Made by a program: the position numbers and the translations under genes. A stretch of 46,310 bases of DNA from Tissierella sp. GTDB lineage: Bacteria; Bacillota; Clostridia; Tissierellales; Tissierellaceae. This document shows positions 27,037 to 29,969 of this stretch, piece by piece; positions within the stretch are counted from its first letter, which is position 1; the number at the start of each line of letters is the position of its first letter. The stretch is from contig NZ_JARIEF010000021.1 of the NCBI RefSeq assembly GCF_029266915.1, forward strand, positions 1 to 46,310, read 5' to 3'. Under the pieces are notes generated by a model. The model was not told where the DNA came from, made no database searches, and saw nothing but the letters and a program-made list of their open reading frames with translations.

Positions 27037-27067
27037 TCGAGATCCTTCGACTATCGCTCAGGATGAC
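27037..27067. repeat. REP-like dispersed element
   Basis: TCGAGATCCTTCGACTATCG followed by CTCAGGATGACA. On the minus strand this reads TGTCATCCTGAGCGATAGTC-type sequence, a motif I recall as widely dispersed between genes in Clostridia and other phyla. It forms an imperfect hairpin (ATCCT / AGGAT arms). It directly precedes the AT-rich repeat region. Confidence 0.55.
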
Positions 27068-27084
27068 AAAAAGAATTCTTTACT

Positions 27085-27365
27085 TTATTCTTATATTACT
27101 AATTCTTATATACTTATATACTTATTTTCTAGTGCCTATATACTTACTTTCTAATACCTATATTCTTATTTTTGATGCTTATAAGCTTATAAGCTTATTT
27201 TCTAATACTTATATACTTATATCCCTATTTTTTAATACCTATATACTTATTTCTAATACTTATATACTTATATCCATATTTTTTAATACCTATATACTTA
27301 TTTCTAATGCTTATATCCTTATATCCTTATATCCTTATATCCTTATCTACTTATTTTTGATGCTA
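27085..27365. repeat. AT-rich tandem repeat region with a 51-bp unit
   Basis: Low-complexity DNA built from CTTATATACTTAT-like words. Two adjacent 51-bp units (27200-27250 and 27251-27301) differ at one base. Degenerate partial copies surround them, and four TTATATCC octamers follow (about 27311-27342). A 103-codon plus-strand frame crosses it (repeated NTYILIS words) but has no ribosome binding site and is not called as a gene. It lies at the convergent end of the betaine and nrdJ genes. The rest of the 26933-27459 gap shows no other gene. Confidence 0.75.
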
Positions 27366-27459
27366 TACGCTTAGTTTATTATATTCTTTTATTTGTATAT
27401 TGCTTTATTTTTTATTCCTATATTTTTATATTTTTTCCCTATCTTTTAAATAATTTAAA

Positions 27460-29592
27460 TTAGATTGAACAAGGTGAATATCCACAGTCTTGACATTCAG
27501 CGCATCCTCCTGAGTGGTTTAAATGTCCTCCGCACATTGGACATGTATCTGGATCAAGTAGCAATTGTTCTTCTGCTAGCTGATTTATCTCACTTTGAAG
27601 CTCATCTATTTTATCAAGTTTACTTTTCTCATTTTTATCTGTTATCAAGATACCAGATCTTGCGCATCCATCTCTATAAATAGTTATTCCTTTTATTCCT
27701 TCTTCCCATGCAAACATATATAGTCCTTCTACATCTTCAACAGTAAATTCATTTGGCACATTTACAGTTGATGAAATACTTGCGTCTATATATTCCTGCC
27801 ATACAGATTGTACATGGATTCTATCTCTATAGTGTAGATTAGATGTTGTAGTAAAGAAATCTGGTAGGTCTTCTTCTTTAGCTATATTATTTAAATCCAT
27901 ATAGTCTTTTACAATAGGAGTAAATACCTTGTAATAAGTGTCTTCATTGTGTAGAGATTCTGATTTTCTAGTGTATGACACTTGGAATATCGGCTCTAAC
28001 CCATTAGAACAGCCTATAAGAGTAGATATGCTTCCTGTTGGTGGAATAGTTAGTAATTGACTATTACGAAGACCATGCTCTTTTATAAGCTCTAAAACGT
28101 CATTATCTGCATTTGCCTTTAAAAATGGTGAAGCTAACACTTTTTCCGCCCTATAGTTTGGAAATGGTCCGTCAATCTTAGCCATCATAGCAGATTGTCT
28201 AAGAGCCTCATTTATAAAAGTTTTACCAATTTGGTGGATAAGGCTAAGTGATTCTTCACTACCATATCTTATTCCAAGTTTTATAAATGCATCAGCTGCT
28301 CCCATTATTCCAAGACCTATCTGTCTTAGTTTTTCACTCATTTCTCTTTGCTGAGGAAGTGGGTGAAGCAACATATTTTCATCTAATATCTCATTTAGAT
28401 ATATAACACCATTTTTTACCATCTCTTCAAATTTCTCAAATTCAAATCTAGCATATTTAGTAAAGGGATCTTTTACAAATTCACTCAAGTTTATAGAAGC
28501 AAGATTACAACTTCCAAACGCTGGAAGAGTTTCTTCCGCACATGGATTAACTCCAGCAAATTCAAATTCATCATCTTCACTCATCAAGTGCCATGAATCT
28601 ATTCTATTTTTGTAAAGAATTCCAGGTTCTGCCATATTCCAGTTGTTTTTAGCTAGGATTCTAAACAATCTTTTAGCATCTACCATTTTGCTTATTTCTT
28701 CGCCCGTAGCCTCTACTTTAAAGTATAATTCATATTCTTCATCGTTTTTAACAGCTTGCATAAACTTATCATCTATATTAACAGATATATTTGCAAAGTT
28801 TACCTTGTCAAGATCGTTTTTAACATTTATAAAATCTTCTATATCAGGATGGTTACAGTCAAGGTTAAGCATAAGTGCTCCTCTTCTTCCTCTCATACCT
28901 ATAAGACCTGTAACAAGTGAGTAAAGGTCCATAAAACTTACAGCACCAGTAGTTGTAGCCGCTGCATTGTTTACCTTAGCTCCCTTGGGTCTAAGCTTAG
29001 AAAGAGTAAGTCCGCATCCTCCTCCGTAGGAGTAAGTTCTAGCTAGATATTTAGCAGTATCAAATATAGACTCTATATTATCCTCTACCTTTGGCATTAC
29101 ATAACAGTTTGAAAGTGTAATCTTTCTACCAACTTTATCTAGTCCTCTTCCTGCTAGAATTCTTCCAGCTGGCATAAATTTTTTATCTTTTATAGCTTTT
29201 TTAACTGGAGAATTTCCTCCGCTTACTCTATCAAGAAACTCATCAAAACTTTCAGTGCTGTATCTATATTTTTTCTCATAAATATCTCTTTGAAGGTCGC
29301 TCATATCCCAGCCTTGTTCACGAAGCTTTGCTCTTTCTTCTCTATATATTATATATTTTCTAGCAACATCAGGACGACTCTTCATAAGCTCTACTTCTAC
29401 ACGGTCTTGTATAGTTTCAATGCTCACTGCTTCCTTGGATCCTAATTCGCTCTCTATAGTCTCAGCTATTTCCCTTGCTAGAGCTTCATCTTCTCCCTCT
29501 TCTGTTTCTCTCATTGCTTTTATAATTGCAATTTCTATCTTTTCAGTTTCAAATTCTACTATGCTACCATTTCTTTTTTCAACATTTAGCAT
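27460..29592 (-). CDS. nrdJ: Adenosylcobalamin-dependent (class II) ribonucleotide reductase
   Basis: 710 residues; the ATG is preceded by AGGAGGAAG. The N-terminal ~90 residues are an ATP-cone (VEKRNGSIVEFETEKIEIAI), the allosteric activity domain. The catalytic barrel has LSNCYVMP, YGGGCGLTLSKLRPKG, RRGALMLNLDCNHPDI, NPCAEETLPAFGSCNLASI (N-C-E radical site) and LTIPPTGSISTLIGCSNG. The C-terminus carries a cysteine cluster CPMCGGHLNHSGGCAEC-type tail for re-reduction and metal binding. It makes deoxynucleotides from ribonucleotides with coenzyme B12, independent of oxygen. DnaA-box-like repeats lie directly upstream. Confidence 0.94.
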   Translation of the reverse strand: MLNVEKRNGSIVEFETEKIEIAIIKAMRETEEGEDEALAREIAETIESELGSKEAVSIETIQDRVEVELMKSRPDVARKYIIYREERAKLREQGWDMSDLQRDIYEKKYRYSTESFDEFLDRVSGGNSPVKKAIKDKKFMPAGRILAGRGLDKVGRKITLSNCYVMPKVEDNIESIFDTAKYLARTYSYGGGCGLTLSKLRPKGAKVNNAAATTTGAVSFMDLYSLVTGLIGMRGRRGALMLNLDCNHPDIEDFINVKNDLDKVNFANISVNIDDKFMQAVKNDEEYELYFKVEATGEEISKMVDAKRLFRILAKNNWNMAEPGILYKNRIDSWHLMSEDDEFEFAGVNPCAEETLPAFGSCNLASINLSEFVKDPFTKYARFEFEKFEEMVKNGVIYLNEILDENMLLHPLPQQREMSEKLRQIGLGIMGAADAFIKLGIRYGSEESLSLIHQIGKTFINEALRQSAMMAKIDGPFPNYRAEKVLASPFLKANADNDVLELIKEHGLRNSQLLTIPPTGSISTLIGCSNGLEPIFQVSYTRKSESLHNEDTYYKVFTPIVKDYMDLNNIAKEEDLPDFFTTTSNLHYRDRIHVQSVWQEYIDASISSTVNVPNEFTVEDVEGLYMFAWEEGIKGITIYRDGCARSGILITDKNEKSKLDKIDELQSEINQLAEEQLLLDPDTCPMCGGHLNHSGGCAECQDCGYSPCSI

Positions 29593-29621
29593 TTAACTTC
29601 CTCCTATGATATATCTATAAT

Positions 29622-29685
29622 CTATCCACAAGCTATCCACAAACTATTTAAGACTTATCTACATCTTATCTACAATTTATCTACA
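29622..29685. repeat. Cluster of DnaA-box-like repeats on an 11-bp grid upstream of nrdJ
   Basis: On the plus strand CTATCCACA occurs at 29622 and 29633, and TTATCTACA at 29655, 29666 and 29677. All are on an 11-bp grid, with a degenerate copy (CTATTTAAG) in the empty slot at 29644. Each is one mismatch from the DnaA box TTATCCACA. They lie 30-93 bp upstream of the nrdJ start codon. The rest of this 549-bp gap holds only a terminator-like stem and no gene. Confidence 0.75.
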
Positions 29686-29969
29686 TCTTGTGGTTTTTTA
29701 ACTTCTATATACAATATATATAGTTTAACATAAAAAAATACCCATTACAATGTATTATTTGCTTATAATAATTGTTTTAAAAGATTTAATTTTGCATCCT
29801 AGCAAGCTATCATCTATAGGGCTCAATGCCTGCATATTTATTAATTCTATATCTCAAACTTTAGTTTTTAGAAGTCTTTTTATAACTCTGCTTTAGAAAA
29901 ATGTATTGGATTTAAAATAGGATTTGTGACCTGCTTGAGTAAGAAAACTAGCTTTATTTTCTAAATAAT

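Follow-up and report, generated by a model that had tools for sequence, protein, structure and literature searches.

A putative composite NrdR-DnaA operator in the 5' leader of a class II ribonucleotide reductase gene of Tissierella sp.

The nrdJ leader and its repeats

The window, i.e. the whole analysed stretch of 46,310 nucleotides, belongs to a draft genome of Tissierella sp. (2.15 Mb, 89% complete, 6.8% contamination). It encodes NrdJ, a ribonucleotide reductase (RNR) that the original prediction had assigned to class II and whose TIGR02504 score confirms this assignment. The gene, its predicted promoter and the elements between them are as follows.

27460..29592, reverse strand: nrdJ, class II (adenosylcobalamin-dependent) ribonucleotide reductase, 710 aa (open reading frame; TIGR02504, 495 bits, cut-off 400)
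29600..29605, reverse strand: ribosome-binding site AGGAGG (from the sequence)
29611..29619, forward strand: slot 7 of the 11-bp grid, half-decayed, TATAGATAT on the gene strand
29622..29630, forward strand: slot 6, DnaA-box-like CTATCCACA, a form shared with the dnaA region of the two genus members and with dnaA-linked arrays
29633..29641, forward strand: slot 5, DnaA-box-like CTATCCACA, as slot 6; the sister genome has ATATCCACA at the equivalent place
29644..29652, forward strand: slot 4 of the 11-bp grid, decayed, CTTAAATAG on the gene strand, 4-5 mismatches
29655..29663, forward strand: slot 3, TTATCTACA, tandem copy (pattern search), weak as a DnaA box (survey of box forms)
29666..29674, forward strand: slot 2, TTATCTACA, 3 bp after NrdR box 2, where family f4 has the perfect DnaA box TTATCCACA
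29677..29685, forward strand: slot 1, TTATCTACA, right half of NrdR box 2 (pattern search, leader comparison)
29678..29693, reverse strand: NrdR box 2, CCACAAGATGTAGATA (box pairs occur in nearly all orthologous leaders)
29709..29724, reverse strand: NrdR box 1, ACTATATATATTGTAT, 31 bp from box 2, overlapping the predicted -10
29722..29727, reverse strand: predicted -10, TAAACT (-35/17-bp/-10 layout common to several family members)
29745..29750, reverse strand: predicted -35, TTGTAA (promoter-like TTGTAA-17-TAAACT)

In NrdR operators, two boxes of 16 bp each are separated by 15-16 or 25-26 bp, which places the boxes at integral helical turns (PMC12051234). The window pair has this architecture (boxes like ACACWATATATWGTGT, 31 bp start to start, 15-bp spacer, integral turns), and box pairs 29-34 bp apart (31-34 in most relatives) are found in nearly all of the 72 orthologous nrdJ leaders in the order; note that these calls were automatic and clearly off in a few rows, four rows having been corrected. 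The gene for NrdR itself is present in the window genome, and TIGR00244 is over cut-off in all five of G000, G001, G047, G074 and G131. In two other leaders (G072 and G068; L193, L195) the NrdR boxes appear to be ~41 bp apart, i.e. one extra helical turn compared with 31-32 bp, which resembles the 25-26 bp spacers reported for Streptococcus. Two further observations concern the gene: in G006 (contig C198, 2658-6011) nrdJ is split by ~1.2 kb within a single 1123-aa open frame in an intein-like manner, and beside the 3' end of the window nrdJ (27063-27374) degenerate short tandem repeats (CTTATATA-like) result in a spurious open reading frame.

The original prediction described five copies of YTATCYACA on an exact 11-bp grid with a decayed sixth slot, and a pattern search recovers all five at 29622-29685. 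They lie on the forward strand at 29622, 29633, 29655, 29666 and 29677 (spacings all multiples of 11), the first two being CTATCCACA and the remaining three TTATCTACA, and the nearest copy is 29 bp away from the start of nrdJ (29592). In the reading direction of nrdJ, the register spans seven slots, with three copies of TGTAGATAA, the decayed slot 4, two copies of TGTGGATAG and the half-decayed slot 7. The earliest of these, slot 1, forms the right half of NrdR box 2, a standard box that had been overlooked. Furthermore, with a predicted promoter at 29750-29722 and box 2 at 29678-29693, the array sits in the predicted transcribed leader; it is thus downstream of the predicted promoter rather than within it. 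Single matches to the pattern are not rare (6 observed versus 2.5 expected in the AT-rich window). Tandem pairs at 11 bp occur across the whole 2.15-Mb genome at the nrdJ leader only, the reversed-pattern control giving 0, and a general genome feature was rejected on account of this single locus.

The claimed likeness to DnaA boxes holds for part of the array. All five copies are one mismatch from the strict DnaA box (consensus TTATNCACA; PMC4447404), none being perfect, and their 11-bp steps keep them on one helical face, as at origins. The two CTATCCACA copies are plausible DnaA boxes: this form is present in the organism's own dnaA region, is found like ATATCCACA in the dnaA regions of the genus, and occurs 6 times among the 194 boxes listed in dnaA/dnaN-linked arrays (of the 117 listed three-box 11-bp arrays, 53 are no more than 1.5 kb away from dnaA or dnaN). 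The three TTATCTACA copies, in contrast, have a form that is absent from the own oriC (where the box is TTATCCACA) and from the own dnaA region, and that accounts for 0 of the same 194 boxes although the pattern searched for allowed it. As TTATCTACA is not among the listed dnaA-linked boxes, the window array appears to be a degraded, duplicated version, with slots 5 and 6 as the best candidate DnaA sites. The organism's own DnaA is of the standard kind: its domain IV matches that of E. coli (1J1V), and the motif of the recognition helix, GGRDHTTV-HA, is identical. A tblastn search found nrdJ beside none of the 117 three-box arrays listed from public genomes, a scan within which records close to the window possibly did not fall.

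Arrays of TTATCTACA at 11-bp steps (one of CTATCTACA) were also seen in a Bacteroidales bacterium and two cyanobacteria (L088 6716-6876, L051 3136-3166, L131 5595-5625); they are not near dnaA or dnaN and possibly serve another reader or a DnaA of altered specificity. Inverted pairs of DnaA boxes, the triplet TTATCCACAGAAGTTATCAACAAATTGTGGATAAC among them, were also seen in a prophage-like stretch (L247 1293-1535; G008, contig C85), a locus in which no dnaA match was found.

Leaders of related nrdJ genes

In the sister genome, whose NrdJ is 90% identical to that of the window, box 2 is followed after 3 bp by TGTGGATAT-GT-TGTGGATAT, i.e. by two ATATCCACA on the 11-bp grid, and an inverted ATATCCACA lies on the left. 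Between box 2 and the TGTGGATA pair, the window has exactly 33 bp more than the sister (3 x 11; counted from the printed sequences). As this difference equals three grid units, the array was expanded or contracted by whole repeats; the exact grid is real, as originally described, but is partly a product of tandem duplication in the window genome.

This history could be explained by an NrdR-only operator with slippage, in which the array is a tandem duplicate of the right half of box 2, either neutral or providing extra NrdR half-sites, and the apparent DnaA boxes are a by-product of the similarity between such boxes and the NrdR halves (CCACAA, TTGATA). The identity of slot 1 with the box 2 right half, the common 9-mer in slots 1-3, the 33-bp step, the absence of the TTATCTACA form from the listed dnaA-linked boxes and the near-universal presence of NrdR boxes in the leaders are all in line with it. 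We nevertheless regard this explanation as unlikely, as slots 5 and 6 (TGTGGATAG) carry a G where the NrdR half has A or T and are conserved in the sister, and as the unit after box 2 in family f4 is a perfect DnaA box, a constant 9-mer behind a variable spacer.

In fact, all eight genomes of genus g32, together with one of g51 and one of g57, have in their nrdJ leaders NrdR box 2, 3 bp (4 bp in G047) and a perfect DnaA box. The element reads TTAACCAC-A/T-A-N-ATGTTGATA, spacer, then TGTGGATAA in nine genomes or TGTGAATAA in one, both of which conform to the consensus (on the other strand, TTATCCACA in nine and TTATTCACA in one). Each of these leaders has one perfect box plus degenerate ones, and the 9-mer after box 2 is constant, whereas the bases in between and the flanking bases vary. 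In the complete genome G047, TTATCCACA occurs six times in 1.6 Mb, one copy being directly after dnaA and one in the nrdJ leader. The strict consensus is found in 12 of the 72 orthologous leaders, compared with 0.8 expected and a maximum of 5 in 200 shuffles.

The window and sister leaders both lack a perfect DnaA box, and most of the 72 leaders, within the family as well as the order, lack the element. Conservation ahead of nrdJ, an expectation of the original prediction, therefore applies to the ten f4 genomes and to both members of genus g1, but not to the majority of relatives; the repeat is at any rate not absent from all related nrdJ promoters, as the perfect f4 boxes demonstrate. DnaA boxes at an RNR control region are thus kept in relatives, as for E. 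coli nrdAB, with most of the order being without them. The comparison covers the order, the enzymes of orthologs outside it being only 55-59% identical. Because genomes within one genus are not independent, the element may have been gained as few as two times, or once if it was ancestral and lost elsewhere.

The repeats could also be the arms of an RNA hairpin around NrdR box 2 with a role in mRNA stability or elongation. The sister leader can form a 19-bp hairpin (z -8.4), and the window leader folds with z -6.1 on a stretch picked after seeing the fold and with z -1.6 on a longer leader; some relatives (genus g7, L030, L031, L189) have hairpins at this place with unrelated arms. The f4 leaders with the perfect DnaA box, however, fold weakly (z -0.3 to -2.7) despite the constant 9-mer, and a conserved hairpin was rejected as a general explanation, since only a minority of leaders fold strongly and those of f4 do not. 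Moreover, an almost identical copy of the sister inverted repeat occurs upstream of dnaA in other families, in the form of inverted DnaA boxes, and such boxes account for the sister hairpin. An Rfam search of the nrdJ leader found no known RNA family, which also speaks against this explanation; we consider it quite improbable. A cobalamin riboswitch or another known leader RNA was rejected on the same ground. Long hairpins around NrdR box 2 are present in the nrdJ leaders of G021 and G007 (L006 and L009), and their arms are wholly different between the species, which suggests a selected structure there.

Matches at dnaA and the replication origin

Three independent searches point to dnaA/oriC. 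A model trained on nrdJ leaders (R1) was run on 248 genomes of the order, and beyond its training sites 13 of the 18 next-best loci were at dnaA. Note that the G047 row of its alignment (A1) has one A missing and wrong last bases; the second model (R2) omits this row. R2 was built from nine f4 leaders, with the window genome and G047 left out, and matched the window leader.

29665..29695, reverse strand: composite NrdR/DnaA element, R2 match (25.8 bits, E 6e-7 in ~60 kb, genome-wide E 1.4e-5; the NrdR box itself supplies part of the score)

This is the sole match in the window genome at E <= 0.001, and the left-out G047 was found with E 2e-9. Among 391 genomes of the class, the best five R2 matches outside nrdJ are all upstream of dnaA and in the same orientation. 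The exact composite TGTWGATANNNTGTGGATAA has three matches in these 391 genomes, each between dnaA and dnaN (control, 0). Furthermore, the element upstream of dnaA in family f63 (three genomes), ACATATCCACAATATATTGATAACTTGTGGATATGT, agrees with the sister nrdJ leader at 31 of 36 positions, whereas unrelated 3-kb pieces reach at most 23 of 36.

The elements upstream of dnaA could be taken as NrdR sites, but none has a second NrdR box at a distance of 29-35 bp (best scores 7-9, background mean 7.6), and for want of this partner box the NrdR interpretation of these elements was rejected; the same result tells against an operator read by NrdR alone at nrdJ. At some origins the middle box is reversed in orientation. 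The missing NrdR partner and the flipped middle box together make DnaA a better reading of the common pattern than NrdR. Direct repeats of ~11 bp are usual for response regulators of the OmpR/PhoB type, and another direct-repeat reader of this kind might use the array; as the best other matches of the element model are at dnaA/oriC rather than at other promoters, we find it very improbable. The original proposal that the repeats are related to DnaA is partly supported, by an element that recurs both ahead of the relatives' nrdJ, as perfect DnaA boxes, and at dnaA/oriC. In several genomes of genus g40 (L250, L251, L253) the DnaA triplet is present twice upstream of dnaA, ~205 bp apart.

A probable composite NrdR-DnaA operator

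Taken together, the nrdJ 5' leader probably contains a composite NrdR-DnaA operator, with the repeats as its DnaA-facing half. Counted against it are the TTATCTACA form of three of the five boxes, the lack of the element in most of the family and order, and the window hairpin. When dNTPs are plentiful, NrdR, the usual repressor of the gene, would occupy box 1, over the transcription start, and box 2 (~+22 to +37 relative to the predicted start). The boxes lying over and beyond box 2, one turn apart and facing the same side of the helix, would be bound by DnaA, which within the leader could act as a roadblock for RNA polymerase and/or as a competitor or partner of NrdR at box 2; nrdJ output would thereby respond to active DnaA. 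The anatomy of the leader and its conservation are seen directly, and from them we infer the binding of DnaA, the sign of regulation and the competition with NrdR. The window element probably grew as the right half of box 2 was duplicated in tandem in 11-bp units (giving the three TGTAGATAA), and the genus-conserved TGTGGATAG pair at 29622-29641 is its most plausible DnaA-binding part. It is conceivable, though we would stop short of calling it probable, that NrdR box 2 and the DnaA-box triplet are superimposed as a single operator that arose two or more times in the order. The dNTP sensor NrdR and the replication initiator DnaA would then share these 32 bp or compete for them, and the class II RNR gene would respond jointly to dNTP level and initiation state.

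DnaA both activates and represses E. coli nrdAB, which encodes a class Ia RNR, and this is the only case of DnaA control of RNR that has been worked out, B. subtilis and C. crescentus being proposed cases (PMC8203912, a review). As in E. coli nrdAB, the boxes at nrdJ, here predicted from sequence, precede an RNR gene that is also under NrdR; unlike there, the gene is of class II, and the boxes are in the predicted leader, over NrdR box 2 and helically phased. The NrdR box pair has the usual spacing, whereas box 2 runs on into DnaA-type repeats. The inverted and tandem boxes, the 11-bp steps and the triplet pattern are those of oriC and dnaA-promoter clusters of Clostridia, but the site is at nrdJ, the middle box doubles as an NrdR half-site, and the window boxes are degraded. 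A search of the literature for NrdR and DnaA boxes together yielded a single, unrelated genome paper, and, going by titles and abstracts, no such operator is described in the papers listed for nrdJ and DnaA boxes. The superposition of DnaA boxes and NrdR box 2 at a class II gene appears to be new.

The leader offers a compact DNA target for the interplay of NrdR and DnaA, and the clean leaders of genus g32 and the degraded window leader provide a natural comparison. If our interpretation is correct, the coupling of dNTP supply to initiation arose repeatedly, here by a different layout, and a single DNA segment may serve to read both the supply of building blocks and the start of replication.
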